From assembly GCA_027604185.1 (NCBI GenBank), contig JADGKB010000014.1, forward strand, positions 1-64,000: a stretch of DNA of 64,000 bases, written 5' to 3'. The translations under genes were made by a program, and so were the position numbers. This document shows, piece by piece, positions 14,294 through 52,909 of this stretch (its first letter is position 1; every line of letters starts with the position of its first letter). Below the pieces are notes generated by a model. The model was not told the origin of the DNA. It worked only from the letters and a program-made list of their open reading frames with translations, and did no database searches. The DNA comes from Boothiomyces macroporosus (taxonomy: Eukaryota > Chytridiomycota > Chytridiomycetes > Rhizophydiales > Terramycetaceae).

Positions 14294-17002
14294 ATGAAAA
14301 AAACAAATCCACTTTGGCTACTGCTGATCTCATCCACTTGCGGACAGGAACTGTCATCAACCGCTGACGATTATGCCTTCACAAACTCCCTAAAGCTTTT
14401 CCAAGATTCTACTTACAGTTACTACATGAACTGGATGATTACTGAAGATAATCACTTGTACCTAAAGTTGGATTTAAATTCTACCTATCCTATTGTTAGC
14501 TCTTGGACAGGAATAGGGTTTGGTCCAGCAATGAGGCAGTCGCAAATGGTTGTATGCAAAAACAGCGGTGGGAAAATTACGCTACAAGAGCACCTCCCCA
14601 ATTCTGAATACTTGGCTCCTGCTGTTTATCAAGGATCATGGGCTGCTGTTGGACTATCTGGCAACTCTGGTGTTTACTCTCAATCTTGCACTTTTCAAAG
14701 ATCATTAAAGCCAAACGATACATTTCACTTGAACTTGGATCCGTCTAACCATATAGGAATGATATGGGCATTTAATCCATCAACTGGTATAAATTGGTAT
14801 GGCGAACCATTTACTTTTCATCAACCAAATCACAGAGGTGCTTTTCAAATCAACTTTATTACTGGGACAGTTGAAGAGGTCACAGTACCCAACTTTACGT
14901 TAAAGCAAATTCATGGGTTTACGATGATGTTTGTTTGGGTATTTTTATTCCCTGCTGGAGCATTTTACGCCAGATACTTTAGATCTGTAAGGGGATGGCT
15001 AGTAGTAAAGATTGGTATTCAATTCTCCGGGGTAGTATTGGTGATGACTGCCATGGTGATTGTCGTGGCCTCGATTGTTGTCTATGGTGCAGGTTGCTCT
15101 ATTTCCGGAACTGTGATACTCTCACTCCTGGCAGTTCAGATTACCCTTGGTATACTTTCACGCTTAGGTCTACAAATGGAGTCTCTTGAAAGTAGTCGAA
15201 CCAGCATTAAAGCTTTCCACAGAATTGCTGGCTACATGATTATGGTTGCGGGAATCATCCAGTCATCGTTTGGGTTAAGAGTGCTTTACCCAATAGAGGA
15301 GCCTAGAGAAATATGGCCATGGGTTATTTATATTTCCCTTATCTGTCTGGTTGTTCTTTCATTCGTGATTGCAGAGGTAATAAGGTTGGTTAGGTTTGAA
15401 AACCACGATCTAGGCTACCATAAAGTACCTACGCAGCTTATAGAAGCTCGATTACAAACTGCTGCTAAAATCATGGAGAAAAAAACTATTGCAGGGCATT
15501 TGAATTTTACTTGGGAATCGTTAGACAAGTGCATCAACGCTGGTAAAATGTACGTTGTTGCCAATGGAAAATACGTGTATGATATTAGCATATGGATTAA
15601 TTCGCACCCTGGTGGCAGAATCATTCTTGATTCCGTTAATGGAACAGACATCTCTAATGACTTTTTCCATGAAGCAGGCTTTGACGCAGAAGAATATGTT
15701 CCAAAACCACTAGCCCCAAGAAGATTAGAAATTAGAACCCCGAAAAGTACTCGCAGCTCTTATTCTGGGTCTGGGTCGACCCATTTTTCTGTTAATGACC
15801 GATTCCAGTCTGCCTATGATTATCAAATGAATGCGCACCACCTATCGTCAATTGATGATACAGATTGGAAATACATCAAGCTCGCTAGACGGACTCATGT
15901 ACATTCCAGGCTTGCAATCGAAACACTTTCATCTTTCATGGTAGGCACACTCTCCCCACGAGTAACTCCTAACTCTTTTGTCGAATCAAGTTCATCCAAT
16001 TTAGGATTCCAGTTTGACCCATTTGAATACCGCCGATACACTATTACCAAAATTACTCGAACTGTAGATGCAAAATCCAACCTTGAAGTTCTAAGACTTC
16101 GGCTTTGCCTACTTTATCCATTTGATATTAGGGACAACCAACCGTTAAATTTTCTTCCAGGCCAATCGGTCGAAATACAATCCAGAGTTAGTGGAAAGAG
16201 AATATCTCGTTATTACACTCCCCTTTGTGGCAATATGAATGCATTCGATATCATTGTGAAGGTTAAAGTTGGCGGTGAAATGTCACAGTATTTGAACAAT
16301 CAAGATTGCGGTGTTCGGCAGTTCAAAGTTCGTGGGCCATTTGGGGAGCCGTTGGTATTAGATTTCTGGGATGGCTACAGCAGGTACAAAATTCCAGAAA
16401 CCGTCTTCTTTATCACAGAAGGATCAGGTATCAGTGCGTGCACACAATTTGTTAATCATTTGTATCTCTCCACTGATGCATCATTAAACGTATTCATTTT
16501 CTAACGTTAGGTATCTTTTGATTTTGAGGCACAACTGTCGGATGAAATGTCCCTACAAGTAGGAGAACAAGTAAGAGCAATACATCAATACCATGACGGG
16601 TAAGTTTCATTAATCGACAGGTGGTGTTACGGTATTAATACTGTTACTGGCCAAGAAGGAAGCTACCCAGTCGGGACTGTGGATCCAGTAGGTGCGGTCA
16701 AAGTCATTCTAGTTTATGTCAATGACAACAATGATACATATATGGGATCAGAGATAATAGGAGGTGCAAAGTTGGCTTATCCTCAACTTGTGGAAAGTGA
16801 ATTCATTGCCCCTGCAGATCTGAATGGCAGTACCTTGATCCCAATATTGGAGAAATACCACTCACCAAACAATTCCAAGATATTTATTTGTGGATCAACT
16901 GGGTTAATGGAAAAATTGCAAGGAATCTTGGGAAATGTTTCGATGAAAACGGCAGTATTCAAGTTGGGTAATCAAAGCCCTAGTTTACACGAAATAAAAT
17001 AA
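14294..17002 (+). CDS. DOMON-b561-b5-FAD/NAD oxidoreductase with inserted SH3 (paralog A)
   Basis: Three exons with 21-nt introns at 16490-16510 and 16600-16620 encode 888 residues. Order: signal peptide (LWLLLISSTCG), DOMON haem domain (~40-175), six-helix cytochrome b561 (~205-375), cytochrome b5 (HPGG with His438; second haem His459 in FHEAG), FAD domain (Arg639 of RYYTP), start of NAD lobe, SH3 (~733-790), rest of NAD lobe. The design would carry electrons from cytosolic NAD(P)H to an outside acceptor. This copy is odd: Cys268 replaces a b561 histidine present in B, C and D; the dinucleotide loop is EGSGISA instead of GGSGITP; and the last motif is CGS, not CGP. It may have weakened electron transfer. 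The stop is 18 nt from the convergent Rad7 stop. Confidence 0.85.
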
Positions 17003-17020
17003 CTCTTTTACCAGCTTTAT

Positions 17021-18703
17021 TCAATCATATTCATTGCCGTACACCATTATTCTTCTGTCGCTTTTGTTTCTCCATTCCTTGTCGAGCACATATCTTGTTA
17101 CTTTGTGACATCCGAAAATCTTTACAGTTCTCAACTGGCCAAGCTTCAGCAAATCGGCCAAGATAAAGTCATCGACACAACGAATCCATGAAAAATCACA
17201 TTCAACCAATCTTGTGCATTTGTTGACAATTAATTGCATAGTAGTTGGAGATAACTCTGCCTTGTTCAAAAATAATCGCTCGATCGTTTCTCCACACAAA
17301 TTTGCAATTACAACAACTGGGTCATCCGTAAGTTCTGGATTGTGCCCCAAATTCACACTGGTCAATCCTAGTAATTTGGAAAACATTTCATTTAATTTTT
17401 CTGTATCTTTGGCCAATTCTGGGCATTCTTGAAGTGATAGTGATTTCAAGATTTGACATTTTGAATGTATAGTGGTTGTAATTTCTGAAGATAGTGTTGG
17501 ATGGTTATCTAACGACAAGTGTGTTAGTTGATGGCCAATAATTTCAAGCAATTTCTGGATAGTTTGAGTCTCTACTTTTCCAATACCAATGAGATGAAGT
17601 TGATTTAGATGATGAAGTGACTCCAATTCTTTGATTCCATCGTTAGTTACTCTTTCACAGTCTCGTAAATATAATGCTTGCAGGTTCTTGCAGTTTTCTG
17701 AAAGAGATTTTAAACCTGAGTTGTCAAGCTTTACAGCAAACTCCAATCTCAAGTGTTCGAGGGCAGTCAATTTCTTGAATAGATCAACATAGGCACCACT
17801 TGAGGGCAAATAAGAACCGGTCAACGTCAATGATCGCAATACACTACATCTATCCCCAATGAGGCTGAATACTTTATCTGGGTTAGTTCAAGGTACCAGT
17901 TATGCGACCACATAATCCAAGTTGCAAAAGATTCAAGTTTGGCGAAAGCATTGGGATGGAGCATAAAGCATCTTCATCAAGATCTAAATTAACCCAATAT
18001 TTACAGGTACAATCAAAAATTTGAACTTCGTCCTCATCAGCACCAAGAAACAATCCCAAATTTTCAGGTCTAATTTGCCTTTGCCTGGATAATATCCTAG
18101 CGATAGTGGTTTTGGTTTGTCTTGGGACACTCAATACCTCAACATCGTCAATTCTTTCAGTGATAAACTTGATGCACAAGTCCCTCAGCGGCAAAATCAT
18201 TCCATCAAGAGAACCTGTATATGTAATTACAGTATCTTCAGTTTTACGCTTTGTCTTTTTTGCCAATCCGCTCGATGATTTTGAAGATTTGATTGTTCTA
18301 CACGCTGCACATTCGATAATTTCAGACTCTGCACTTGGAATCAAGAACCGTCGGGTACAGTGGTTGCAAATTCGAAGTAGACCCGAAATTGAATGAGGGT
18401 CAGGCTGTTGTTTTCTCTTCTTTTTCGGAATTGGAATATCATCATCCTCCTCCTTTTTCTTTTTGTTATTCTTTTTCTTGGAAGCTGAAGTTTCTGCTGG
18501 TTGGGCTGCTTGCGGGGCAGCTGTTGATTCTTGATTAGCTGGTTCAGTATTCTCATTCTGCTGTTGGTCCCTGTTAATTCTAGCATATGGATTTGTCGGT
18601 ACGGTAATTCCTCGTTCTCTCAAGAAGCTGAATTATAGGACAGTTACCTAGACAAAGCCGAAGTTGGCCCTCTAACAGGCTGTCTATTCGGTCGTTCGGC
18701 CAT
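17021..18703 (-). CDS. RAD7: Rad7 nucleotide-excision-repair LRR protein
   Basis: Three exons with introns of 20 and 19 nt encode 547 residues, close to yeast Rad7 (565). The N-terminus (RGPTSALSRFLRERGI) is the Rad7 signature and is joined across the first intron. A disordered Lys/Glu region follows, then a small Cys-rich zinc-type motif (CNHC...CAAC) and a long array of cysteine-containing leucine-rich repeats of F-box-protein type (for example LQALYLRDCERVTNDGI). With Rad16, Rad7 acts in global-genome repair of non-transcribed DNA and in a cullin ubiquitin ligase. It diverges from the cytidine deaminase gene over only 147 nt. Confidence 0.92.
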
Positions 18704-18850
18704 TTGGAGATCAGAAAGAAAAAAGGAAAAGTTTAAATGAAACGATATCTGTTTAGCATCAAGTGAATGAATCCCATTCGCATCAATTAGTTGCAATCTG
18801 CGAGCGCTTTTGGTGAATGATGGGTCACATTTGTTTCCCCAATTAAAAAA

Positions 18851-19341
18851 ATGTCCCACACCAAAATCGGCTTGAAGAATGGTTGAATTGAATTAATCTA
18901 GGCTTAACTCCAGAAATTGAAAAGCAATTGGGTGAATTCGCATCATTAGCAAAGACCTATTCGTACTCTCCTTACTCAAAGTTCAGAGTAGGAGCTGCTC
19001 TTCTAGCTGAATCAGGAAACGTTTTTTTGGGATGTAATGTAGAGAATGCATCCTACGGAGGTGCGATTTGTGCAGAAAGGACCGCAGTGGTCAAGGCAGT
19101 GGTAACTTGTCTATTAATCTAGTCTTCTGGAGAAAAGAAATACTTGGCGATTGCAATCACTTCCGACCAGAATGATTTCATTTCCCCATGCGGTTTCTGC
19201 AGGCAATTCATGGTTGAATTCGGAAAGAAGCTGATCGTATTGCTTGTTACTGCGGAAGGAAAGGTAAAGAAGTTTACTTTGGAAGAATTGCTCCCTCTTT
19301 CTTTTGGTCCTGATAACCTTGAAAACAGAAACGATCTTTGA
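18851..19341 (+). CDS. CDD1: Cytidine deaminase
   Basis: Three exons with introns of 20 nt (18882-18901) and 21 nt (19102-19122) give 149 residues, the usual length for the homotetrameric class. The zinc site is complete: CAERTA (catalytic Glu and first Cys ligand) and PCGFCRQF (two further Cys ligands). [13 protein letters not shown] and [12 protein letters not shown] are the substrate-binding blocks. The enzyme deaminates cytidine and deoxycytidine to uridine and deoxyuridine in pyrimidine salvage. The first exon is only 10 codons plus one base, so the gene is easily mis-started at the later internal ATG. Confidence 0.95.
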
Positions 19342-19731
19342 TCATTAAATAAAGCAGTCTGTTTATCACATCTGTATTTGAATTCTGGCAAAGCTGCAGT
19401 TAAAGCCATGTACGTAATAGTGTCTATACTCAATAACTATGGCGTGTAAGACATCTAGCTGCTGTATACTACTCACTATTCAAGTGCATAATCTTGGTTT
19501 CGTGCTATTGCCACCACACTCTTTTTTACACAAAAAAAGCGGCATAATAAAAGGTACAGTAAAACCGGCTCGCCTACTTGTTAAACTCGCTCGCTTTAGC
19601 GATTCAAGCACTTTATTTTCGTTTTTGCTTTCCAGCTTATCGTTCTAATCCACAATCTAAATTTGGAAACCCGCCACCTTGTGCCCTCGGTTCAATGAAA
19701 AAAAACTATTTTCATATTAGCCTCCCAGCAG
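19342..19731 (+). other. Intergenic region before oxidoreductase B
   Basis: About 390 bp without a supportable gene. It contains pyrimidine-rich runs and, around 19541-19556, a CATAATAAAAGG element that could serve as a TATA-type sequence for the downstream gene. Nothing else was recognised. Confidence 0.5.
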
Positions 19732-22449
19732 ATGTACAAATTGCTCTTGCTCATAGCAGCAATATTCGCCCAGGGCTTACCGAATATTTCGTACCCTTTC
19801 AATTTCAAACACCAAGTTATCCTGTTTAATGACTCGGAATATACATATGTAATGGACTGGGGAATCACAGGAAATCAAATGATTATAAAATTAACAATGG
19901 ACTCGACCGATGATTTGAAGCTTTCTTGGGCAGCAGTTGCCTTTGGTACTTCTATGAGGCAATCTCAGATGATTGTTTGCCATAATGTTGGAATCAACAC
20001 TCTAGTATTGCATGAGCATCAACCTAGAGGACAATATTTGGCTGCACCTATCTATGACGGAACATTTGTCGCAGTTGGGTTATCTGGTTTATCTGACAGT
20101 AATAGCCAAACATGTGTATTTCAAAGGCCATTCCAACCAAATGATTCTTATCACTTTAACTTGGATCCAAACGCACCAATATCAATGCTATGGTCGTTTA
20201 ATCCTGCTACTGGAATAAATTGGTACGGAGCTCCATTCACTTTTCATCAACCCAATCACAGAGGAGCATTTGAAATCAATTTCTCAACTGGGGAAGTCGT
20301 ATCAACCAATGTTCCTAATTTTACCTTGAAACAAACACATGGGTTTTCAATGATGTTTATATGGTTGGTTCTATTTCCCTTTGGCGTATTTTATGCTCGT
20401 CATTTCCGATCATACCCAGGCTGGTTGTGGGTGAAAATCGGAGTTCAATCTACTGGTGTGGTGTTGGTCTTGTGTGCAATATTAATTGCCGTGGCCTCTA
20501 TTGTGGTATATGGTGGTGTGCACACAATATTTGGAACAGTAATAGCTTCAACTTTGTTGATACAAATCACTTTGGGTGTATTTTCTAGATTAGGACTCCA
20601 GTATGACACCATAGACAAACACAGGACTACTTTTCGATTCTTCCACAGGGCCTCAGGGTTTATTTTGTTAATATGTGCTGCAATTCAAGCTGGTTTGGGC
20701 CTTGAAATTATGTATCCACTTGAGGAGCCTCGGGAAACATGGCCGTGGGTGTTATACATTACTGTGCTGGTAGTAGTTGTTTCTACCTTTCTCATTGCGG
20801 AAATATTAAAGCGAGCGAGGTTCGAATACAAAGATCTGGGTTATCAAAAGTTACCAAGTAGCAACATTGATGCGAGATTACAAAATAGTACCAATCACAA
20901 CTCTGAGGCTGTTGAACCAGCTGGAAAGCTAAATTTTACTTGGGAATCGTTAGACAAGTGCATCAACGCTGGTAAAATGTACGTTGTCGCAAATGGGAAA
21001 TATGTATATGATATAAGTATGTGGATAAATTCACACCCGGGAGGAAGAATTATTCTCGATGCAGTAAATGGAACAGGTAATCTTTTGTTAAATTCGATAT
21101 TTCCAACGACTATTTCCATGAAGCCGGATTTGATGCCGAAGAATATGTTGCTAAACCAATAGTTCCAAATAGATTAGATCCGCGGCCGTTCAGAGCAAGT
21201 GCAAGTGCGTTCAGTGGAAATAGTAAGTTTTCCATCAATGATCACTTCAAATCGCAATTCGACTTTGATATGAATGCTCATCATCTATCAACATTCGATG
21301 AAGTCGATTGGAAGTATATCAAGAGATCTCGAAGGACACATATTCACTCAAGATTGGCGATTGAAACCTTGGCATCTTTGATGGTTGGGCGAATGACACC
21401 CAAGCTACAGTCAAATGCTTCTGTGGAAACTGCAATTACCAATACTGGGAGAACTTTTGAAGTTCACGAATACAGGAGATACGCCCTAACAAAAATAGCT
21501 AAAGTCCCTGGATCGACTACAAACGAAGAGGTGGTCAGACTTAGATTTTGTCTACTCTATCCGTTTGACATTAGAGATAGCCAGCCTTTACATTTTCTTC
21601 CGGGGCAGTCCATTGAAATTCAAACTAGAGTGAATGGCAATCGCATTTCTCGGTATTATACTCCAATCAGCGGCAATATGAATGCATTTGAAATTTTAGT
21701 CAAAGTGAAACCTGGTGGAGCCATGTCGCAATACCTTGCTATGCAAGAATGCGGAAACAGACAATTCAAAATTAGAGGACCTTTTGGATCTCCGCTGCTG
21801 TACGATTACTTTGAAGGATACAACAAGTTTAATTCTCCAGAGACGGCTATATTCATAACTGGTGGATCAGGAATTACGCCATGTGTCCAACTCGTGAATC
21901 ATCTGTACTTGTCTACTGGATTTTCTTGCAAAGTAAACTATTCTAATGTAGGTCACTATGCCATATGCAGCTCAATTGTCGGATGAATTGACTTTGAATG
22001 TAGGAGAAAGTGCCAGGGCTATCCATCAATACAATGACGGGTAAATTTAACTAATATGTAGTTGGTGTTATGGGACCAATTTAGTGACAGGGCACGAAGG
22101 TAGCTATCCTGTATCTTGTGTCACGCCGTTAGGACCTGTTAAAGTAGTGTTGATTCACGTCAGCGCTATAGCTGGCAAGTATATCGGCTCTGATATAATT
22201 GAAGGTGCGAAACTTGCTTACCCTCACTTATTAAGATCGTACATTGTATCTCCTGGTGATTTGGGTCCAACTACATTACTGCCAATCATTGAGCAATCTT
22301 ACATGGCTAACAATACTAAAATTTTTATTTGTGGTCCAGAGTCTATGAATCGAAAGGTTAGCGGGATGCTCGAACACTTTAGTTGGTCAATGAAAAATAG
22401 CGTCTACTTGCTTGGCAACAGCGACCCTGAAATGCACCAAATAAACTAA
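19732..22449 (+). CDS. DOMON-b561-b5-FAD/NAD oxidoreductase with inserted SH3 (paralog B)
   Basis: Four exons with introns at 21077-21096, 21933-21951 and 22041-22061 encode 885 residues with the same architecture as paralog A: signal peptide, DOMON, b561, b5 (HPGG), FAD (RYYTP), NAD lobe split by SH3. Motifs look intact: b561 His in VHTIFGTV, GGSGITPC, CGP. The first intron must end in CG (...TTCG|AT) to keep DISNDYFHEAGFD, the second haem-His segment of the b5 domain. The intron splitting DG|W in the SH3 is shared exactly with A, so A and B are sister copies. Its stop lies 14 nt before the first ATG of paralog C on the same strand. Confidence 0.88.
21077..21096 (+). other. GT-CG mini-intron (non-AG 3' end)
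   Basis: The 20-nt segment gtaatcttttgttaaattcg has a normal 5' end, a GTTAAAT branch-like element and normal length but finishes in CG. Removing it restores NGTDISNDYFHEAGFD, matching paralogs A, C and D. A 47-nt GT..AG alternative is in frame but deletes nine residues, including the conserved His of the b5 haem pocket. Confidence 0.65.
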
Positions 22450-22463
22450 TTTTTTTCATTTTT

Positions 22464-25177
22464 ATGCAGTTTGATTTTTTGTTGATGTTACGCGTTTTGG
22501 GGTTAGCTCTAGTCCTACAAGCAGCACTTGCTCAACTGAACCAAACAATTTTAACACCAGGTACACTAATTCCACAGGGTACTAAACCCCAGAGCTCTTA
22601 CCACTATATCCTTTATGACGAAACTGACTACACTTTTACATTTGAATGGAATGTCGATCGCTATAATTTTTACGGCACCATCGATTTGGTTTCTTACGAC
22701 GAATTTTTGGATTATTCTTGGATATCGATAGGTTTTGGTGTTAATATGCTCGCCAGTCAACCGATAGTGTGTTCAAACTTGAACAACGGATCTCAGGTAA
22801 TTCAAGAGAGAAGTAGCCAGATCTACTATCTAGCGCCGGTAGTATTCATTTAACACAGACCATGAATTCAGATACTATTGTTCACGGAGTTTTCTCTAAC
22901 GTTACTTTGACACGGCAGACTTGCTCCTTTCAGCGTCCACTTCAAGTAGGACCTCAAACAACACAAAAACATTACCCTATTAATCCAAACAACACTATGA
23001 AAATGGTATGGGCATTTAACCCTGCTCCATCAGTAAATTACCGAAATGAAAGATTTACATTTCACTCTCCAAATAACCGAGGTTCATTTTCGGTTCAGCT
23101 TTCTACTGGTTTTGTTGAAAACATACCTTTAAACAATTTCAATTTAAAGTTGTTGCACGGATATTCCATGCTTGCTATTTGGTTTGCGCTCCTACCATTT
23201 GGGGTCTTTGTCGCTCGTTACTGCAAGGTGTTTACTGGCTGGTATTATATCAAAATCTACTTGCCTACGATATCCATCATATTTATGATACTTTTAATTG
23301 TTGAAGTACATTTTGCAGGTGCTAGATACGGAAGATACTCTCACAGTATCTTGGGGACTGTTTTGATGATCCTAGTGGGCTTTCAGGCTGTTGCGGGGTT
23401 CACAACAAAGTTTGGCAGAAACTATGAAGTTTCTCATAAATATGTTCCATATGTAAAGTACTTTCATCACTATCTTGGATACACCCTGCTTTTCATGGCA
23501 ATTATTCAAGTAGCACTCGGATTAAATGCGCTGTATCCCGTAGAAGAACCCAGAGACTATACTGGGTGGTTCTTGTATGGTATGCTGATTGTTTTTTGGT
23601 TAGTGTTGTTCATGTTGGCAGAAGGAGTCAGCAGAAAGAAAAACTATTCTACTGAAGAAGTTAAAAGCAAAGGTAAAGATACCAGTATTGAACCAATTCT
23701 CGATAAAATGAAGCATAACAAGGGCATGGAAAGGTTTACTTGGGAAACTTTGGACAAAAAAATTCTTGAAGGGTAGCTCAATCCTGACTGTAGCAAAATG
23801 TATGTAGTATCAAATGGGAAGCATGTCCATGATATCAGCCAATGGATCAAAAGCCATCCGTAACCTTTTTTAATTTTAGGGGTGGTCAAATTATTCTTCA
23901 AAATGTGATAGGAACGGATATTACGAACGATTATTTCCTAGAAGCCGGCTATGATGCTGAAGAGTTTATTCCAAAACCTCTGACCCCAGACCGTTCGTTA
24001 ATGAAACGACTAAGCCAATACAAAAAATCGCCAAAGCTTTCATTGGCAAGGTTTGAAGAGGAAAGAAATGCATTCCAATCTTCAATGACAAAAGAAGATT
24101 GGCAGATCATCAAACGAGCTAGAAGAACCCATATTCACTCTAAAATGGCAATCAAAAAACTGGCTTCGTTGGTAGTTGGGGAAATTAGCGGATCAGTAAG
24201 GACATCCCAATCAACAATTGAGCTGACAAACTCTGATGTTTTCGAATATAGGAGATACGCCATCACAGAGCTTCAATATTTATCAAATCCAGAATCTACG
24301 AAGCCAATTATTGGAATCAAATTCTGTACTTTATACCCTTGCTCTGATAGGGCCCGGAATGATAGTTTCTTGCCTGGCCAGTGCGTAGAACTACAAGTTC
24401 AAATCAATGGCAAACGATATTCTAGATATTATTCGCCAGTTTCGGGAAACATGAATGCCCTAGAAATTATATTCAAAGTGCAATCTCAAGGTGTGGTTAC
24501 GCCATACATGATGAAGCAGGGATTGGGGGACCGCCAGTTTAAAATAAGAGGTCCTCTGGGGGATCCATTGATTAGGGATCCATTTTCGTGTTACTTTCAA
24601 TATGGATACCCAGAAACTGTATGTTTCTTTGCTGGAGGTTCTGGAATCACTCCATTTTTACAGCTATTGTCACACTTTTTCCTGTCTACTGGCTATGTAT
24701 TACCAGTAATCCTTTCTAATCTAGGCCATTCAAGATTACCGAGCCGCGCTAAGTGACGAGCTAGATATCAAAATTGGTGACCAAATTCAAACAGTCTCGC
24801 ATTACTATGACGGATGGTCGTATGGGTTTAACATTTCGACTGGAGAACGCGGTGCATTTCCATTAGCCTGTGTGCAACCTCTGGCACCAGTGAAATTGAT
24901 TTTAATCAACACATTTAATGCAAGCGCAGATTTGATTGGTGCTTCCCTTATCGAAGCTGTGCGTTTGGGATATCCCGATTGCGTAGAGACTTTTAATTTT
25001 TCTTCAGCTACTTTAAATATTACAAATGTTTCTCCGATTGTAAGCGTGCTACCAGCCAACGCTTCACTGGTTATATGTGGGCCAAATGCATACAACTGTT
25101 ATGTGTCAGACATGCTCTATGATTACTATGGCACCAGGTTCAGTAATGTTCGCATTCTCTCAAGCTCCACTTTTTAA
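22464..25177 (+). CDS. DOMON-b561-b5-FAD/NAD oxidoreductase with inserted SH3 (paralog C)
   Basis: Five exons with introns at 22839-22858, 23773-23793, 23860-23879 and 24706-24724 encode 877 residues. Signal peptide (RVLGLALVLQAALA), DOMON, b561 (His in YSHSILGTV), b5, FAD domain (RYYSPVSGN), NAD lobe (AGGSGITPF ... CGP) and an SH3 inserted after the first helix of the NAD lobe (AIQDYRAALSDELDI ... YYDGW). Introns flank the b5 HPGG motif in C and D but not in A and B, so the group splits into AB and CD. Either the ATG at 22464 or the in-frame one at 22485 could be used; the second puts the signal peptide at the very start. The gap to paralog B is 14-35 nt. Confidence 0.88.
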
Positions 25178-25255
25178 TAAACATTGGTTGGCAATCATTG
25201 AGTTTCCATTTCGAGATGTGGCACCGAGACTGTGGAAAAAACTTTTGCATAGTTC

Positions 25256-27960
25256 ATGAAATTGGGGTTGCTTTCGTGCTCTGTAGCAGCCGCATCAGTA
25301 GCGCATAATGTCCCGAATGGTTTACTCGATAGCGCAGCTTTTCAGGAAAAGACATATCAGTTCAATACGATACTATACGACAGCTCAGAATACTTGTATA
25401 AAATATTCTGGAACGTCAACGACACTACTCTGGATGGAATGATCAGTCTTACTTCCACTAACGGTGAGGCGCTAGATTTTTCTTGGATCGGACTAGGGTT
25501 TGGAACGGCAATGTTCACTGGCGAAATGATTGTTTGCCACAACTTGAATAATGGAACTCAGCTTATTGAAGAGCACTTTGGACAGATGTTTTATCTTGCT
25601 CCACTATTAAACCAAGACGTTACTGCAGTCAGAGGTACTTTTGGAAACGTTTCAGTCAGTCAACAAAATTGTGGTTTCAGCAGACCGTTGATTCCAGCTG
25701 ATCCTAACCACGCAACGCTAAGCTCCAAAAGCAAAGTAACCATGCTATGGGCTTTTAATCCAGCTCCGGGGTTGAATTATCTAAATCAGCTCTTTAGTTA
25801 TCACGGCCAGGATTACAGAGGGTCTTTTAATGTTTTATACTCTACCGGATTCGTTGAAACTATTCCTTTGAATAATTTTCAAGTTAAGCAAATTCACGGT
25901 TTCGGAATGATGGCCATCTGGTTTGTAATTTTGCCTCTTGGTGCTTTTGTTGCTCGACATTTCAAGTCGTTCAGTGGGTGGTACTTTGTAAAGATTAGTT
26001 TGCAGTCATTCTCAACTATCATCACGGTCGTACTGATTGTCGTTGCCCAGCTATCTGGTGCATCGTTTGGGAGAACTTTTCACAGCATCTTGGGGACAAT
26101 TATTGCAGTGTTGGTTGGCGGACAAGGGCTAGCAGGCCTGATAACTCGATTTGGGTTGAAATTAGAAAATTTAGCTAACCATGTCCCAAAATCGAAAATT
26201 ATTCACCGATATCTTGGCTACACACTCCTAACTGCCGCAATTATTCAAGCAGGTAAATTAAGCTAATATAGGAATGGGAATAAATATTCTTTTTCCAGTG
26301 GTAGAGCCACGAACTCTAGTTCCTTGGGTTTTCTATGGAATCCTGATTGCATTCTGGTTGGTAGCCTTTGGCGTTACAGAATATGTTTACAAAAGAGCAA
26401 ATATTAGAAAAGAATCTGGCTACTCGAGGGTGCCAAATACAAACATAGAACCAATGATAAAGAATGAAAAGATGCTAAAGCACACCCTCACAAAGTTTAC
26501 CTGGAGAACTCTTGATCAGGAAATTCTTATTGGGTAAAGAATTACTAATAGCAGAAAGCTTTATGTTGTTTCTAATGGAAAATATGTCCATGATATAAGT
26601 AAATGGATCCTCAGTCATCCGTAAGTTTACAATTTACCTTAGCGGTGGTCAAATTATTTTGCAAAACGTAACTGGGACTGATATTACCAACGACTATTTC
26701 CATGAGGCTGGCTATGATGCAGAAGAGTTTATAGCGAAGCCAAAAGCTCCAAAAAGAGACCACTCTGAACTCCCAAATGAACTAACTAATGCATCTCGAA
26801 GAAGTAGAATTGTCGATAAACACAATTCAAACTTTTTAGCTGAATTAAATGCCCACCAAATTTCATTCTATCATGAAGAGGACTGGACAATGATTAAAAG
26901 GGCCAGAAGAACTCATATTCACTCCCGCTTAGCATTGCAAAAACTAGCGGATTTAGTAGTCGGAGAAATTGACACAACATCAGGATCCCAAATAACAATT
27001 GATCCCACTGAAAATCTAGTTGGCCGGCCTTTTGACGCTTATGAATACAGACGGTATGCAGTCACAGATTTAGAAGTGCTATCAAAGCCACAGTCCACGA
27101 AACCGATTATTAAGATTAGGTTCTGCCTACTCTATCCATTCGATGTTAGAGACCACTTGCCGCTAACATTCTTCCCCGGACAGTGTATTGAAATTCAAGT
27201 ACGAATCAATGGACAAAGGTATTCAAGATACTATACTCCAGTATCAGGAAATATTAATGCTTTTGAAATCGTATTCAAAGTTCAAACAGAGGGAATAGTC
27301 ACCCCTTATCTCATGCGCCAAGAGCCTGGTGATAAACAATTCAAAATTAGAGGTCCATTTGGAGCTCCGTTGATACCAGATCCATTCAGTGGGTATCATC
27401 AATATGGATATCCTCAAAATATCTGTTTCTTTGCTGGTGGATCAGGTATTACCCCATTCCTGCAATTAATTTCGCACTTTTTCTTGTCAACTGGCTATGT
27501 ACTCCCTGCTATTCAAGACTATCGTGCCCAATTAAGTGATGAAATGAATCTTCGATACGGGGATCAAGTTCAAACTACTGAGCACTTCATGGATGGTTGG
27601 GCACATGGATACAACTTGACAACTGGCGAAAAAGGGACATTCCCACTCTCATGTCTTGAACCACTAGCTCCAATTAAATTGGTGCTGTTCAACAGTTCAA
27701 ACTCCCCAGCTGATTTAATTGGGATGCACATTATTGACGCAGTGAAATTGGCTTATCCAGATAGCATGGAAATCCACAGCTTTACCTCTGCAAGTCTCAA
27801 AATTCAAAATATCGCCCCAGTTTTAGAACCAAAATCTCAAAATATGAAGTTGATTGTTTGCGGTCCAGTTGGGTTCAATTCTGCAGTAGTAGATTTGTTG
27901 TCGGATTACAGAGGCAGCTGGACCCATGACATGAGAGTATTAGCTAGTGATACTTTTTAA
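25256..27960 (+). CDS. DOMON-b561-b5-FAD/NAD oxidoreductase with inserted SH3 (paralog D)
   Basis: Four exons with introns at 26253-26271, 26534-26554 and 26621-26642 encode 880 residues. Signal peptide (MKLGLLSCSVAAASVA), DOMON with its Met-containing haem face, b561 (HGFGMMAIWFVI, His in FHSILGTI), b5 (HPGG; FHEAGYDAEEF), FAD (RYYTPVSGN), GGSGITPF, then SH3 (QDYRAQLSDEMNLRYGDQ ... DGWAHGYN ... GTFPLSCLEP) and the second half of the NAD lobe beginning PIKLVLFNSS and ending in CGP. All redox motifs are intact. It is the most regular of the four copies and best shows that the SH3 sits between the first helix and second strand of the NAD-binding fold. Confidence 0.9.
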
Positions 27961-43891: not shown

Positions 43892-46133
43892 ATGTACTAC
43901 AATAACCCAGCCGAATCCCAGGCTACTCCCGCTATAGAAGCTTACACTGTTACAGAGCACTATATACAACCTACGAGTAAGAACTTTTGATTAACCAAGA
44001 CTATAACTATCCAAGTGGCGCTCAACAAAGCCCAAAGACCACACAACGTAAGAATTTGATTAATAACTTAGAGCCAGTTTACAAAATGAATGGCGGAGAC
44101 AATAATGGCATGAGAGATGCCAATGGAAATATTGGCATTGGAAACCAAGGATCAAATAATATTGGAAATTACAATATCGGAAACAACAATGTTGGGGACA
44201 GAAATAATGGAAATAATAATGTTGGTAGCTTCAATAATGGAAACAACAACCATGGGTCGTTCAATAACGGCAATGACAACTGGGGAAATAACAATGTTGG
44301 AAATCATATTACTGGAAATGGGATAATTCAAACTGTCCCGGCGTCAAATGCAATTTCATCCCCCGAATCCACACAGACATTGACCAACTCTGTTTCCGTT
44401 CAGACATCAGCATCCAATACTGCTGCTTCAAGTAGCTCCCTTTCCACTGCTGCATTAACTACTGCAACACCTACCCCAACTCCGGGATCTAGTGACAATT
44501 CTCTATCTGCAGGTGTACTAGCTGCTATCATCATACCAATCGTGTTAGTAATTCTTTTGATTGCAGCCTGTTGCATATGGCTCTCCAAGAGAAGGAAAGC
44601 GGAACAAGGTGCTGCAGTAAAGAAAAACACTGAATATGCACCCCAAATATTGGTATCTGAAATTCCACCTGCAGTTTCCTTGCCAAGTGGAAACGAACAA
44701 GGTTTAGGATCAGCAATCGCTTCTGAATACCAAACCCTAGAGTACGGACTAGCTAGCAGGAGCGCTATCCAAAACAATGAATCGTCCTACTACAACGAAC
44801 AGGCAGTTGTCGACACTGAGCTTCCAGCAGAAGCACCTAGGTACCAATTATCAGGTGCTGAAAGGGGAATATCTGCTGCTACTGCTGCTGCTTATTCTGA
44901 ACAGGATGAAAAAGTTGTAGCATACAATACAGATACCCTTTCAAGTCACCATTCTGGAGCTGCGAAAAGAGGTAATCAATATTAATCTTAGTGGAATATG
45001 AAGAGTATACTCTTCCTAGAATTCCTTCTCAAGCAGCTTCACTAGCACAGTCTTCGCCATTGATATATGATCAAGAACTGAGGGACAGAGTTAGTGTAGA
45101 AAATATTGCGCAAAGCACTCCACCCCCAGTGCAACTGGATAGTGGACTTGCCGGTGCTACTGTATTTACGGGTTTGGCAGCTCTTGCAGCTGCAGTTGGA
45201 ATTACCAGCGCCAGCAAAAAACAAGAAGAGTCCGCCGTCATTAGTGAAATTGACCATGGATCCTTCGCCGACACTAAAGTCGGTGCAATCGCTGAGGAAA
45301 AGGAAAGCTCCCAAGTTAATGTCCTAAAGAAATTAAACGAAACCGAGAAAGTCGAAGCTGTAGAAACTGAAGTTGTTTCTAAACACAATACTCTGGAAGA
45401 AGCTGCCCTAGTAGAAGGATTTGCCGAAGCGGCTCGCACTGGTAAAGTGGAAAAGAGAGTTAGTTTCGAAGAAGTGGAACGAAAAGTTATCAAAGAAGAG
45501 ATTGTCATCAAGAAGATCAAAGAAGTGAAATTCGAGCACAAAGAGTTGGAGGAAAGGGAAATTGATATCCCTGAAGTTAATACTGAAGAAATCAAAGCTC
45601 AACTTTCAACAGTTGACGAAGAATCTTCTACCGCGGTTGCTGTTGATAAACTACCTGAAAAAATCCAAATTCAAAAGCAGACTTACACTCGCAAAGATGA
45701 CAAATACTTTGTTCCTGATGATGATGAACCAGAAGACTTGGATGACTGGGCTCCCCCAGCTGCTACGTCTCACGTAGTTTTTACTAGCTATTTCCCAAAG
45801 CAAAGAGATGAAATGCTCCTCCAGCCGGGAGATTTGATTGGTATTGAAAAGGAATACGGCGATGGATGGGCTAGAGGTCAAAATATATCTCAAGGAAGAA
45901 AAAGATGTATTTTCCCACTAGCAATTTTGACACCTATCAAATCGGGCCCATCGCAAAATGTTCGCAAAGGAAAGGGAATGATGTGGCAGGGCCAAGCAAA
46001 CGCAAACACTGAAGTTAAAGATACAGTTGTGTACCACGAGCGAACCATATCATTGAGGAGATTAAGAGGAAAGAATAGATCTAGAACCAGTCTGATTTCA
46101 ACAACTTCGTCAGACGATTTAGAAGCCAAATAA
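43892..46133 (+). CDS. Transmembrane SH3 protein with NGN-type repeats
   Basis: Three exons with introns of 23 and 20 nt encode 732 residues. After an N-terminal stretch without a clear signal peptide comes an Asn/Gly-rich repeat (units like NNVGDRNNGN, SFNNGNNNHG; residues about 60-120), reminiscent of pentapeptide-type or NxGxxN beta-helix repeats. Next are a Ser/Thr-rich linker likely to be O-glycosylated, one membrane span (VLAAIIIPIVLVILLIAACC) and a KRRK stop-transfer. A long cytosolic acidic region and a C-terminal SH3 (HVVFTSYFPKQRDEMLLQPG ... DGWARGQN ... CIFPLAI) follow. The layout is like yeast Fus1-type TM-SH3 proteins. A cell-surface or polarity role is a guess. Confidence 0.75.
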
Positions 46134-46232: not shown

Positions 46233-49200
46233 ATGAGCAAAATTGCAAGCATCTTCAACCTCAAGTCAGAGGTAAAGAAAGGTAGTGTTGCATTTTAATT
46301 AAGCGCTTCTTGCTGATTTAACGGATGCAGTTCAATTGACGGATTCAAGCAAAGTTCTGATATGCTGTCCTGCTGGTTTAGAGCTACTGAATAGAATACT
46401 AGACATTTCAGACCTACTACAAGTTGGGATTTCTAGTATTAATTGGCTAACGTAGTTACATTGGCTTTAAATGGAAAGCGAAAGGCAGACAGGACAAAGG
46501 GCGCTATTTACTTTTGTTTTCCCACAAAGAACTTTCTCAATGTATTCAATAACGACTTTGGGGATGATCCGTTGTACAGGGAAGCACTATTTATTTCTCC
46601 TATAAAAACACCCAATGACATTGTGGGTTCAATTCGGAAATCACCTTCCAGGCGGTTCGTGCTATCGTGGGTAGATGGAAGATACGATTTTAATGGTACT
46701 CGAAGCTAACAGCAGTGTTTGATTCCAGAAGTTTCCATTTTGATATTAATGATTCAATATCTCAGCTATACCATAACAAGTCGACCCTCAAACTGGACGC
46801 AACATTGGATGAAATTGCTGAAAAGGTATTTGGTTTTTAATCCTTGATAATTTCGGTGATGATTAGGCTCAAGCAAATCCCAAACATTAAATATTTTGAT
46901 CCAAATGGGGCAGGAACCAATTTGGCTGCAAGAGCTGCTTGGAAAGTTTATCAAAAGGCCGAAGAATTAGAAGAAGCAAAGGAAGAATGGTCGGCAGATA
47001 ATATCACTGCGGATTTGCTTATTATTGATCGAAGCGTAGATACATTAACTCCAATCTTACACAATTTGCATTACCAAGCAATCATCCAGGATTTATTCTA
47101 TGTGGAGAATGGAAAGAAGCTTCATTTACCTACGGATGAAATTAGAGATGAAAAAGTCTATGATTTAAGTGACAAGGATCAGTTCTTTATGAAATTGCGA
47201 CATCTTTACCTTGGTGATGTTGGAGAGGAAATTGCAAAATTCATTGCTGAAAATCCTGCGGCTAATGAATACTACAATGGAGGAACAGCCGCATTGGGAG
47301 ACAAGGTATATTCCTTGGGGGATGCCCAAAAGATTCAGCAACATTCAGTCATTTTTGATGCTTTATGTAAAGCTTATCAAGAAAATAAGCTGGATACAAT
47401 AGTAGAACTTGAGCAGGTATTAATCTTTTTATTCAGAATCTCGCCACTGGTGAGTCCTCTAAAACTGGGGCTAAAATCAGTGCTGAAATCGTTCAGGAGG
47501 TTCTTGAAACTATTGCCAATCCTACAATCAAGTAAAATTTGTTAACTTTAGTATCGATGACAAACTCCGTCTGTTACTAGCTTGCCATCATAGATTCCCG
47601 GTTGCTGACGTACAGGAGGAAAGTGTGAGAGATTTAGCTATGGGCGGATTTAGCGGGCTAGATGTTTTGCGATCTGGCAAGAAAATCCCCAATGATGACT
47701 CTGATCCAATGTGGAAATACACTTATGAGGGATGGAAGTCAGCAATGCAAGCAAAAGGAAGAACTTTACCTCCAGAAAATGAGGAAATTATAACCAGATT
47801 CAAGCCGACTTTGCATCGCTTGATAGATGTACTTTATCTGTAATTGTAGGATTACCTCAATAATTGGTTCAGCCCTGTGTTTTCATCTGTAGAAGAAGAA
47901 ATTGTAAAAGAAGAAGAAATTCTAGAACGTGGGAATGGATCTGTTATTCCATTTACCAAAGGATTCGTTCCATCATGGGGTAGAATGAAGCCAGAGAATC
48001 CAGATGTTGAAGAATTCGTAGATTTGTTAAAGAATGGAAGAAGAGTAATTATATTTGTCTTGGGAGGAATGTCGATACCAGAAATACAACTAATTCATGA
48101 ATCAATTTCTGTTTACAGTCGCGACCTTTTGATAGGTATTGTATAGCTTAATTGTAGGATCTACTAATTTAATTACTCCGAATATCTTTGCAAATGACTT
48201 GTGTAGACTGGGCGAGAATGATTCTGGAATCCCTAGGCTACTTTCTCCAATCAAACCGCTGTTGAAACAAGAATTGGATTTGCGAAATAAGAAAAAGTTG
48301 AAACTACTTGCTGAGCAAGAAAGGTTGAAGCAGGAGGAGGAAGATGCACTTGAAGCCGAAAAACAAAAAGAACTAAGGCGGCTGCAGAGTCAGATGCAAA
48401 GAGTGAACATTGAAGAAGGTAGGCAAAGAAGGTTACAAGAAGCACTGGCAGATGCTGACGATGGTTTAGGCAGAAATGATACAAATGCATACTCCAAATA
48501 TCAGCCTATACCCAGGTCAATGTCACCTTCTAATGTGTCTTTAGATCGTGGGCCAGGGTATGCTTCCATGCAACAGGCAGTGACCTCTGACCCATTTCAA
48601 AATGTATCATATGCTTCCAAATCATCATATTTTTCCCCTCCATATATTCTTCCGCCTCCAATTTTGAGCACAATTCAGCCCTCGCACTATTCTTCAATTT
48701 CTCATTCTACCAACTCACCTGCTACTGCGACTCCTTATACTCCCTCTGCTGCAAACACTGATCGTGATATCCCAAATATTATTCCGGTGAAAACAGATGT
48801 AACTGATCAGAATCAGGTTTCAGCAGACGAAAAATCTGCAACTTCAACAGTTTTCACAAAAATGGATGAAAAAGTTGCTACTCCAACAAACATAGAACCA
48901 AAAAATATCGGCAATGATCAAATTTCTAGAACAACCTCCATTAAATCTCTTGATTCCATTAGCTGCCCTTCAGAGTCTGCTAGACGTGAAAATAGCACAT
49001 CATCTGGAGAAAGAAAAGTTGATGTCAAGAAGCTATTCCAACGTCCCACTGTAATTAGAAAGAAATCTGACAAATTGACCAAAATGGCTTTGAAGTACCG
49101 TGAATTGGCTGCCAACTCCACGAAAAGCGAGTCGAAAGCCCAATTTGAGAACTTCATTCCTCCAACTCCTTCTATACCTCAAGCCGAAAATCCTGGCAAT

Positions 49201-50025
49201 CAACGATTTCCACAAAGACGAGTGGTGCCTGCATCGGCTACCCGTGTTCCAAATAGTGGCAGAAATCTATCTCACGATAGTTATTCCGACGGAAACAGTC
49301 CGTACAGCCAAAATTCCCCCAATTCGACACACAGCAGTCATCCAAATCTCCCGTACAACCAACCACAGACAACTGGTTACTCTGATTATAGCTATGGCTC
49401 TAATCTTCCATCTCCACCTCCTCCTGTACGAAGACAAGTGTATGCTCCTCCTCAGGGTCCCAACTGGACTCAAACTGCTTTAGGACAAGGTGGGCCCCCA
49501 CAGTTATTACAAAGACAGCCAAGACCGCCACCTCCTGCTAACTATCAAAGCTATTTTTCCCCAAATCGACCTGAACCTCCATCTCCTCAACAATATCAAA
49601 GTCTTCCACCTCAACAATACCCAAGCCCTAACCAATACCAACCTCCTATTAACCAGTATAGAAATAACCAGCCCACTGGTTATGATAATAGGGGCTCCCA
49701 TTACGACAATCGTGGTAGTGTGTATGATAGAAGTGATAACCGAGTATCCAACTATGACAATCGCGCAACAGGATATGATAATAGAAACAGTCAATATGAC
49801 AGGCAGCAAAGTAACTTTTATGGAAATCAGCAGTATACACAATACCAAGACCAATATCGGCCTCCATATGATAACTTTAATCGTCAGAGTCCCGGTCCTG
49901 ATCAATATCGCTATCATGGGTACCCTCAACCACCTGAAGGTCGTCCACAAGAGCCTCAAGGATTTGTTCCTCCAGGTCGAGGCCCATACAGGCCTGGTCA
50001 ATATCAGCCAAGACCACCAATCTAA
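46233..50025 (+). CDS. Second Sec1/Munc18 protein with long Pro/Gln/Tyr-rich tail
   Basis: Nine exons with eight introns (20-22 nt) encode 1208 residues. The first ~630 are an SM fold: KVLICCPAGLELLNRI, KGAIYFCFPTKNFLNVF, IAEKIISVMIRLKQIP, LLIIDRSVDTLTPILHNLHY, LRLLLACHHRF, RVIIFVLGGMSIPEIQ and GSTNLITPNIF. A charged helix (NKKKLKLLAEQERLKQEEED) leads to a ~500-residue disordered tail rich in Pro, Ser, Gln, Tyr with YDNRGS/YDRSDN-like repeats. The fourth intron (46826-46846) must end in TG. Motifs place it in the Sec1 rather than the Sly1, Vps33 or Vps45 group, so it is probably a Sec1 paralog with an added tail; this needs a tree. Confidence 0.85.
46826..46846 (+). other. GT-TG mini-intron (non-AG 3' end)
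   Basis: The 21-nt segment starting gtatttggtttttaatcc ends in TTG, followed by ATA ATT TCG. Removing it gives EIAEKIISVMIRLKQIPNIK, which fits the SM family block. The next AG (41 nt from the GT) puts the downstream exon in a frame with an early stop, so the TG end is the only one compatible with the conserved sequence. Confidence 0.75.
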
Positions 50026-50090: not shown

Positions 50091-51476
50091 CTATTTGTGT
50101 CCGTTAATTTCATCAAGCTCTTCAATGTATTGTGAGAATGGAACCTTTGATCGTTCTTTACTGTCTTCTTTTGGGAGATTTGGAATGGATGATAATCTTT
50201 TGGAAATACGCACCTCCTCTTTTGTCAGCTCCACGGCTACTCCAAAATCTGGTTCAATGCACACCATTGGTAAAGCACCTTGAGCTCCTGTTTCTGGATC
50301 AATTGCTAAACCCCATCCATCGTCATATTCCTTCAAAAGATATACACTTTTGCCAACTAGCAAAGTAAGCTCATCATCCATGGTGGAAGAGTATGGGTGA
50401 ATAATCTTGAATTTCTTTGAGCCTTCTGGGATAGTTTCAAGCGAAACAGCTGATCCGGCAACTGTTGCTGGAGAAATGATTTGATCTATGGCTGGTGTAC
50501 CAATATTTACAACAGCCGAGTCAACAACAGAGTTGGCATTCTGTGCAGGCAAAATATTAGAAGGGCTGTATGCGACAGGCTGCGGCTTTTGTACAGCTGC
50601 TTGATTAAAGGCAGAGCTGTAGGGTGAAGCAGGAGACTCTGCATATTTAGGAGTAGCATTGTTGTAAAAGTCTCTTCTCTGTTGCGCTTCATCATAGGTA
50701 AGGCTGCTAGGCCCATCATCGTAATTTCTGCCTTTTCGGTAACAGTAGAGTCCAATTCCAAGAGCAACAAGCAAGCAAACACCAACTACTGCAGAAACCA
50801 CTACTATAATGATCTTGGTTGATTTATCTCCAGAGTTGCCGTTCAAGCTCAAAAGGTAGTTTTGGCAACATTGCTTGGTGTTGGCGTCAGTGATATTTCC
50901 AGCGCACTGAACATTGGCAATGTCTGTCCCCAAGAAACCTTTTATCAATAATCATTTACCACAGCCGGTAGATTCAATAGTAGCGCCTTTCACACAAGTT
51001 GGAGCTTGAGAGTCCGCCTGGGTCTGGATTTGGTGACAATAGGTATTCGCATCTTGTAAAACTTTCAAATTTGGATTTTGACATTTAGAATTTTGCAGCA
51101 GGCTATTGAGTGAGTTTACACCAGCATAACAGTTTCCATAGCAAAGAGTTGGGCCATTTTGGTCCAAATCAGTGGTCACTTTGCAGCCGTTTGCAATTGT
51201 CTTTGAAATAAACAGTGAGCATGCCATTGATACTTGATATTGTAATGATTGCGCTTGTTGTTGAACTAAAGTCTGGTCGCATTGTGCTGCTTGGGCAATG
51301 GCGGTAATCTTATTCGTAATGTTGGCGTAAGTTGAATTTATAAAGGCGCTCCATTGGTCCACCGGCAAATCGACTGGGTAGCCAGCATATGCAGGACCGC
51401 AGATATTATCCACTGGGAGGGCATAGCAATTCGGAGTATCCGCCCTAACTGCTGTGAGGAATAGAGCTAATATCAT
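50091..51476 (-). CDS. Secreted Cys-rich ectodomain / TM / SH3 protein 1
   Basis: Two exons with a 21-nt intron encode 454 residues. A short signal peptide (MILALFLTAVRA) precedes a ~200-residue Cys-rich ectodomain (for example NICGPAYAGYPVDLPVDQW, GPTLCYGNCYAGV, KQCCQNYL). One span (IIIVVVSAVVGVCLLVALGI) leads to a cytosolic tail with a C-terminal SH3 (FKIIHPYSSTMDDELTLLVG ... YDDGWGLAIDPETGAQGALP) and a short charged end. I started at the ATG at 51476; an open frame extends upstream without ATG. It is a tandem paralog of the next gene (112 nt apart). Likely a surface sensor or adhesion-type receptor docking cytosolic Pro-rich partners; inferred from topology only. Confidence 0.78.
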
Positions 51477-51588: not shown

Positions 51589-52909
51589 TTATTTTTCTTG
51601 TGCTTCCAGTTCAGCCATGTACATACTAAATGGGACTTTTGCTCGTTTGCTGGTATCTTCCGGCATCGAAGAAAGTCTCTTTGAAATTCTTACCTCAGAA
51701 TCTCTTGATCTGTCAATCTGTACGCTAACATCTTCTGTAGCTTCTTCCACGCAGACAAGAGGAACAGCTCCCTGCTTGCCGCTTTCAGGGTCGACAGCCA
51801 GTCCCCATCCGTCATCAAACGCCTTCAACAGGTAAATAGATTTCCCCTCGACAAGCGATAATTCATCATCCAATACCGAAGTATATGGATGGATAATATT
51901 GTATTTCTTTGCGTCATCAGGCAATGATAGCAAAGTAGGTGTGGCAGGAACATCTTGCGGGGCTGGAATTGGTTGAATAACTGAAACTGGAACAGTCACC
52001 TTTGCGACTTCAGCAGCAGCTACAGGAGTTACCGGAATAGGGGCAGGCTCAGGTACATATGCCGGAGCAGAATTTGGATTAGGAGTGTGAATAGGTGCAG
52101 AGACTGGTGCAGGTTCCTGTTTGTATCCGTATTCAACTGGTGGTTGGTAAGCCTGGTTGGCATATTTCTGGCTCTCAACTTCCACAGGCTTCTTTCTTCG
52201 GAAGTAGTAGATAGACCCAAATAATGCCGCAATCAAAACAACTCCGATGGCAACACCGATTGCAATAATCAAGGTGCTGTTGCCAGAGCTTCCTCTGTTC
52301 TTCAAGAAGGAAACACAGCAAGCATCTTGAGATCCTGTGCATTGAGCAACTGCAGTGCTTTCGTCAATATATCCTACAATTAAAAATGCGAGTACCACAA
52401 ACACTAGATTCAGGTGATGAACCAGCAACACAGTTTGATCCTTGTGCTTGCACAGAATTGCAATACGCATTCATTTTGTTAATTTGAGCTTGGAACACTC
52501 CTCCGTTAGGACACAAGGTGGCATTCTTGACCAAATTTGTAAAGGTTTGAACCGCCATGAAACAGTTGGAAGCACACAATGCAGGACCAGTTGAAATAAG
52601 TCCAGGAGAAACTGCGCAGCCATCTGAAACAAATTGGCTGATATAGGACGAGCAAGCAAAAGAAGCCTGGAAACGCAAAGTATCAACAGCTGAAGAAATC
52701 AAATTTGGATCACATTTTCCTTGGCTGATGAAAACCGCAGTCATGTTGGATTTGTTCATGAAATTACCTTGAATACCAGAAGTGAATTGGTCCAAGGTAG
52801 TTTCAACTGGATAACCGGCATATGCACTTCCACACACATTGTTGCTAGGTAAAGTGCTGCAGGTTAATGATCCAGCAGCTTGAGTTACTCCAATAAGCAA
52901 GGTCAGCAT
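51589..52909 (-). CDS. Secreted Cys-rich ectodomain / TM / SH3 protein 2
   Basis: Two exons with a 22-nt intron encode 432 residues. Signal peptide (MLTLLIGVTQAAG), Cys-rich ectodomain with the same motif as its neighbour (NNVCGSAYAGYPVETTLDQF, GPALCASNCFMAV, DACCVSFL), one span (LIIAIGVAIGVVLIAALFGS) with RRKK stop-transfer, a Pro-rich linker with repeated API/AP dipeptides, and an SH3 (YNIIHPYTSVLDDELSLVEG ... FDDGWGLAVDPESGKQGAVP). The intron sits at the same place (after the ectodomain Cys-Gly) as in paralog 1. The Pro-rich linker could bind SH3 domains in cis or trans. Function unknown. Confidence 0.78.

Follow-up and report, generated by a model that had tools for sequence, protein, structure and literature searches.

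What does an SH3 domain do when it lies inside the nucleotide-binding lobe of a membrane-bound reductase? The question is raised by four neighbouring genes, here called g1–g4, in the analysed window, a stretch of 64,000 nucleotides at the start of contig C14 (JADGKB010000014.1; 207,664 bases) in the 15.2 Mb genome of Boothiomyces macroporosus, a chytrid that a taxonomy look-up places in Rhizophydiales, Terramycetaceae. Their products combine DOMON, b561, b5, FAD and NAD modules, and in each of them an SH3 interrupts the NAD lobe. With middling confidence, we interpret them as NAD(P)H-dependent plasma-membrane reductases in which the SH3 would act as a docking handle and not as a plug of the NAD(P)H site. 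The four genes are the following.

14294..17002, plus strand: g1, three exons (14294-16489, 16511-16599, 16621-17002), 888 amino acids, architecture DOMON-b561-b5-FAD-NAD(SH3).
19732..22449, plus strand: g2, four exons, 885 amino acids, architecture as in g1; the model depends on a non-AG intron at 21077-21096.
22485..25177, plus strand: g3, five exons (introns of 17, 21, 20 and 19 nt), 871 amino acids, architecture as in g1.
25256..27960, plus strand: g4, four exons (introns of 19, 21 and 22 nt), 880 amino acids, architecture as in g1.

These models were spliced by hand from genomic DNA, and the four proteins can be aligned end to end. A first-pass annotation of the window had assigned the five modules plus an SH3 to all four paralogs, which is upheld by Pfam, genome searches and alignment. 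The Pfam scan covered six pieces from g1, g3 and g4 at a threshold of E 0.1, and g2 was covered by six-frame genome searches. Over the Pfam cut-offs, DOMON, Cyt-b5 and FAD_binding_6 were recognised in g1, Cytochrom_B561, FAD_binding_6 and SH3_1 (32.6 bits) in g3, and FAD_binding_6, SH3_1 (27.6 bits) and SH3_9 (32.4 bits) in g4; the genome searches found DOMON (41.1 bits) and FAD_binding_6 (54.1 bits) in g2. The curated cut-offs are 22.9 bits for SH3_1, 30 for SH3_9 and 22 for NAD_binding_1, so that SH3_9 in g3 (29.4 bits) falls marginally below its limit. In the six-frame search, SH3_1 matched 16517-16669 in g1 (23.2 bits, E 8.1e-4) and 24725-24862 in g3, and the SH3 of g2, having no profile match of its own, was recognised by alignment with g1, g3 and g4. 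The proteins have the FAD-lobe and NAD-lobe fold of the cytochrome b5 reductase/FNR superfamily, without an uninterrupted NAD_binding_1, of which g4 matches columns 2-19 alone (19.0 bits, below cut-off). The Ferric_reduct membrane domain, which we take to be PF01794, was absent from the Pfam matches of the six scanned pieces.

With regard to the gene models, the introns of g1–g4 measure 17-22 nt, which is unusually short for fungi, the shortest being that at 22842-22858 in g3 (17 nt). All of them have GT...AG borders except the first of g2 (21077-21096), which starts with GT and ends with CG. The exon residues following this intron are present in the relative P0005, and nine residues are skipped there in P0006 (HK103_001458), probably the model that NCBI gives for g2. 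A sequencing error, an allele and a rare splice site are candidate causes of the unusual border.

The insertion point was located in an AlphaFold2 model of the g4 segment 26659-27957, built on an alignment of 23 sequences. In this model, the NAD lobe opens with a strand (residues 254-260) and helix A (261-275, 15 residues), is followed by the SH3 strands (281-284, 303-309, 314-319 and 325-329), and resumes with strands 340-346, 370-375, 396-401 and 425-428 and helices 356-365, 382-392 and 404-417. This order of elements puts the SH3 after helix A and before strand 2, in agreement with the first-pass annotation. The SH3 part was modelled with a pLDDT of 90-94 at residues 281-340 and contains four strands of at least three residues along with short bridges; residues 277-339 align by sequence to solved SH3s, that of p47phox among them. 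The matches listed in a structure search with the model as a whole were all FNR-type or b5-type reductases. The inserts and the lobes of g4 are placed as follows.

16511..16696, plus strand: SH3 insert of g1, from alignment and the SH3_1 match, with a 21-nt intron (16600-16620) within it.
21952..22137, plus strand: SH3 insert of g2, from alignment with g1, g3 and g4, with a 21-nt intron (22041-22061) within it.
24725..24889, plus strand: SH3 insert of g3, from alignment and SH3_1 (32.6 bits).
27508..27672, plus strand: SH3 insert of g4, from SH3_9 and SH3_1 over cut-off, the model, and sequence similarity to solved SH3s, including that of vinexin.
27031..27408, plus strand: FAD lobe of g4, from FAD_binding_6 and the model strands.
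27412..27507, plus strand: first part of the NAD lobe of g4, with strand 1, GGSGITP and helix A, from the model.
27673..27957, plus strand: second part of the NAD lobe of g4, with strands 2-5 and the CGP motif, from the model and a b5 reductase alignment reaching model residue 428.

A phase-0 intron lies directly before the SH3 in g1 (16490-16510, 21 nt), g2 (21933-21951, 19 nt) and g3 (24706-24724, 19 nt), and none is found there in g4. Two details of the proposed motifs need amendment: GGSGITP does precede the SH3 in g4, but g1 carries GSGISAC and not GSGITP, and the SH3 start given as YRAQ is not exact, since g1 begins with SFDFEAQ.

It had also been supposed that the SH3 adjoins the cofactor site and that an SH3 ligand could open or close NAD(P)H access, switching electron export either directly or through a shift of helix A. 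Rossmann-type sheets of parallel strands bind their cofactor along the edge where the strands end C-terminally, beside the glycine loop and the beginning of helix A, whereas helix A ends, and strand 2 begins, at the other edge; a helix of 15 residues, as helix A is in the model, spans about 22 Å. By this general topology, the insertion loop and the cofactor lie on opposite edges of the sheet, which speaks against an SH3 next to the cofactor site and does not support its role as a gate. Gating is therefore considered improbable, an indirect effect through helix A being possible, and docking is preferred as fitting better than plugging of the NAD(P)H site. The SH3 would be exposed on the NAD-lobe side away from the FAD cleft, where it could bind a cytosolic partner that places the enzyme or keeps it in a complex.

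How widely this arrangement is kept was evaluated in 62 database proteins obtained from two protein searches. The protein profile search was word-based and scored the best 8000 candidates by shared words, and the range outside chytrids was not judged by it. The genera named as sources of these relatives are taken as chytrids, and the six species looked up all belong to Chytridiomycota, representing Rhizophydiales, Synchytriales, Polychytriales, Lobulomycetales, Spizellomycetales and one uncertain order. When a rule blind to the SH3 was applied to the 62 proteins and the four window models, the SH3 was present in 45/45 with a complete C-terminus; eight more proteins outside this rule have it after helix A, which amounts to 53/53 judgeable proteins, with no SH3-less member among them. 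Left out of the 53 were three partial proteins (P0057, P0059 and P0062) and ten that stop early, soon after the G-S-G motif (P0021-P0024, P0049, P0052, P0055, P0058, P0060 and P0061), some of which were probably cut at an intron, like the unspliced frame of g1. An assembly artefact was rejected because the insert recurs in other genera.

The B. macroporosus genome also holds an SH3-less paralog, L032 (contig C6), which shares with the family the DOMON, b5 and FAD modules (DOMON, Cyt-b5 and FAD_binding_6 by Pfam) and differs in that SH3 was not matched and NAD_binding_1 is nearly complete (columns 1-107 of 109, 36.9 bits against the cut-off of 22). Its b561 gave no Pfam match at E 0.01, yet the four b561 His columns are kept by alignment. 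Once the SH3 columns had been removed, 47 reductases matched the L032 NAD lobe over 134 columns with a gapless join (P 98.6, E 6.5e-16). The reverse history, in which L032 lost an SH3, is possible. With a matching SH3-less enzyme in the same genome, a comparison of the two could reveal what the SH3 contributes.

Two further SH3 reductase genes lie in near-identical repeated blocks on contigs C115 (twice) and C133, reflecting either recent duplication or assembly redundancy. In Synchytrium microbalum, the relative P0016 (691 aa) has a Pro-rich N-terminus (PLPPTK) ahead of b5-FAD-NAD(SH3), with a precomputed Pfam list that lacks DOMON and b561; it could be a soluble variant or stem from an error in the gene model.

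The interrupted lobe seems not to be confined to reductases. A genome search with a g4 fragment gave weaker matches to NAD lobe plus SH3 on C34, C76 and C14 at 141 kb (E 1e-11 to 6e-8), in frames that lack an FAD lobe and join an outer part to an inner tail through a single hydrophobic stretch. In the tail, strand 1 and helix A come first, followed by an SH3-like part, then strand 2 and a CG-like motif. One tail used as a query retrieved receptor-type matches on C76, C14 at 141 kb, C41, C23, C121, C77, C98, C149, C34, C7 and C60, together with reductases on C115 and C133, and led back to g3 and, over residues 9-191 of 208, to g4 (E 1.8e-8); two further tail queries added loci on C113 and C128 and found g4 again (E 2.0e-9). 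FAD_binding_6 has 16 matches in the genome, all of them outside the receptor-type loci. Ten of the thirteen loci were read in sequence (C60, C113 and C128 being left out). Pfam recognised PAN units in the ectodomains of L048, L052 and L050, and LRR in P0065 and P0066, which are relatives of the C76 protein; L029 and L030 appear LRR- and PAN-like by eye, one stretch of L053 had no Pfam match, and the ectodomain type was not settled for L049, L051 and L054. A protein search with a receptor tail returned four proteins, all from Boothiomyces or Terramyces, and P0063-P0066 have one clear membrane segment each.

The relationship between both groups was evaluated by comparing a profile built from 47 reductases with one built from 11 tails (seven loci and four database proteins). 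The whole profiles matched with P 99.3 (E 9.5e-21) and the SH3 alone with P 98.4, and the match persisted when the SH3 was cut from both (P 96.6, E 6.3e-10, score 61.6), the N-flank alone reaching P 86.8 and the C-flank alone P 91.8, against a maximum of P 1.6 and score 17.7 in 30 column shuffles. A short phase-0 intron is found at the helix A/SH3 junction of tails L029, L030, L048, L050 and L053, as in g1, g2 and g3; L031, L052 and L054 read through this junction without an intron, and L049 and L051 were not spliceable. Against a shared domain, the tail flanks matched the SH3-less NAD lobe, represented by the single sequence L032, with P 0.6, and therefore the FNR link is visible only via the reductase family; the tail profile found no FNR in the PDB, its matches being weak and the best of them a vinexin SH3 (E 0.11). 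From sequence comparison, receptor-like surface proteins seem to carry the hybrid NAD-SH3 domain again, here as an inner tail and without the reductase engine. We advance only tentatively the broader proposal that this SH3-split Rossmann domain is a portable chytrid signalling module, which would have originated in a surface reductase, as its NAD lobe, and then become a redox-stripped cytoplasmic tail of LRR/PAN receptor-like proteins.

The tails also bear on gating. SH3 Trp is found in 0/11 of them and SH3 Pro in 11/11, and GGSGITP is lost except for one Gly (9/11). Thus, the SH3 Trp and the NAD-site residues are jointly kept in reductases and jointly lost in receptor tails, which would fit a coupling between SH3 and cofactor, but such joint loss is also expected from plain loss of redox function.

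Several findings weigh against docking reductases or the re-use of their domain, beginning with the docking position, which derives from general topology and not from measured coordinates. AlphaFold2 of the P0063 tail (four sequences) reached a mean pLDDT of 33.8 and no usable fold, an outcome neutral in itself, and the shared fold consequently rests on the profile comparison. Other such findings concern the SH3 groove and the haem ligands. The groove was counted in 47 rows chosen by a rule requiring [DE]GW and the second Gly of G-S-G; both are biased by this selection, and the Trp was therefore counted in a different set of 45. As aligned to the Src groove positions, which we take to be Y90, Y92, D99, W118, P133 and Y136, the rows carry Glu at D99 (47/47), the Pro of P133 (47/47), the acidic pair (47/47) and an aromatic residue at the second ALYDY tyrosine, Y92 (45/47), and the Trp of W118 is found in 45/45. 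Tyr is found at Y90 and Y136 in 0/47, and therefore the groove may be unable to take a classical Pro-rich ligand, peptide binding through the Trp/acidic pocket being still feasible. The missing tyrosines would also be expected if the SH3 fold were a structural relic, an enlarged loop lending stability to the lobe or to a dimer and binding no peptide, and the receptor tails, which retain the Pro without the Trp, point in the same direction. However, the reductases keep the acidic pair, Trp and Pro throughout, which seems more than a mere loop needs; a relic is judged unlikely, if slightly less so than gating.

A ligand could also lie within the protein itself, since the linker directly after b5 contains PxxPxR in g1–g4 (PLAPRR, PIVPNR, PLTPDR and PKAPKR, respectively). 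The SH3 would then bind this Pro/basic linker, either in its own chain or in an adjacent one, holding b5 toward or off the FAD lobe. Across the family, a classical Pro motif occurs in 13/59 linkers against 4.9 expected from shuffles, mostly in close relatives of the window genes, and we consider such self-docking very improbable. A Pro-rich frame of the window at 48139-50025 (plus strand, 628 aa), which contains PPPPVRR and lies near window SH3 frames, could be an SH3 partner. Further frames matching SH3 at or near cut-off are found at 44991-46133 (plus), 50091-50948 (minus) and 51589-52470 (minus), the last two with a single hydrophobic segment each, as judged by eye, and 66 SH3_1 matches, repeated copies included, were listed in the genome search.

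Regarding the redox chain, electrons would pass from cytosolic NAD(P)H to FAD, a b5-type haem, the membrane b561 haem or haems and the outer DOMON haem, which could deliver them to an extracellular acceptor such as ferric ions, cupric ions or an oxidase. In the rows used for the groove, the CGP Cys is kept in 44/47 and the first Gly of G-S-G in 47/47. The haem residues were counted in another 47 rows (46 SH3 proteins and L032), 41 of them in common with the groove set. The DOMON Met and His are each found in 45/47, with two gaps each. The b561 ligand positions, in g4 numbering, were matched by order and spacing alone to those of Arabidopsis CRR, for which PMC10784552 gives the His pairs 220-289 and 256-325. 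Position 214 is His in 45 rows, 246 is His in 29 and Lys in 18, 276 is His in 44 and Cys in 3, and 317 is His in 45. The Lys at 246 is present in all of g1–g4 and the Cys at 276 in g1 and two relatives, and these substitutions, like the second b5 His (g4 residue 462), kept in just 31/47, count among the adverse findings. The His of RTHxHSR after the b5 domain (g4 residue 535) is found in 47/47, L032 included, and is a possible alternative b5 haem ligand. Hence, judged by its motifs, the complete electron chain that had been proposed appears intact in many chytrids other than this one, as well as in L032, but is uncertain in g1–g4.

Among known systems, the CYBDOM proteins (plant CRR, animal SDR2) are alike in combining an outer haem DOMON with Met/His and a membrane b561, and ferric reductase activity is reported for them in PMC10784552. 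CRR consists of DOMON and b561 alone and depends on ascorbate, whereas g1–g4 add the FAD/NAD dehydrogenase, b5 and SH3; they have the DOMON Met and His of CYBDOM proteins, but one of the four b561 His is missing. Compared with NADH-cytochrome b5 reductases (CYB5R3, the nitrate reductase reductase fragment), g1–g4 differ in the SH3 between helix A and strand 2 and in the fusion of the reductase to b5, b561 and DOMON. NADPH oxidases offer another parallel, since the p47phox SH3 is among the sequence matches of the g4 SH3 and NOX2 is a transmembrane flavocytochrome controlled through the SH3 proteins p47phox/p67phox; however, NOX enzymes have a ferric-reductase membrane domain and SH3s on separate subunits, whereas the SH3 of g1–g4 is nested in the dehydrogenase itself. 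An SH3 nested in the fold of another domain is known from the split PH domain of PLC-gamma, where the host domain is unrelated and several domains are inserted. As judged by titles and the starts of abstracts, literature searches turned up no account of the DOMON-b561-b5-FAD-NAD(SH3) architecture, in line with the first-pass view that it is undescribed.

To our knowledge, surface redox activity and sensing are poorly known in zoosporic fungi. The SH3 is kept in every checkable relative across at least five orders of Chytridiomycota, and a docking domain placed within the dehydrogenase of a membrane-spanning reductase could regulate it in a manner for which we have seen no description. The re-use of the hybrid domain in receptor tails suggests that chytrids have a class of surface proteins with an inner domain that Pfam did not recognise. 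If the portable-module proposal is true, surface sensing and electron export would draw on one common set of cytosolic partners.

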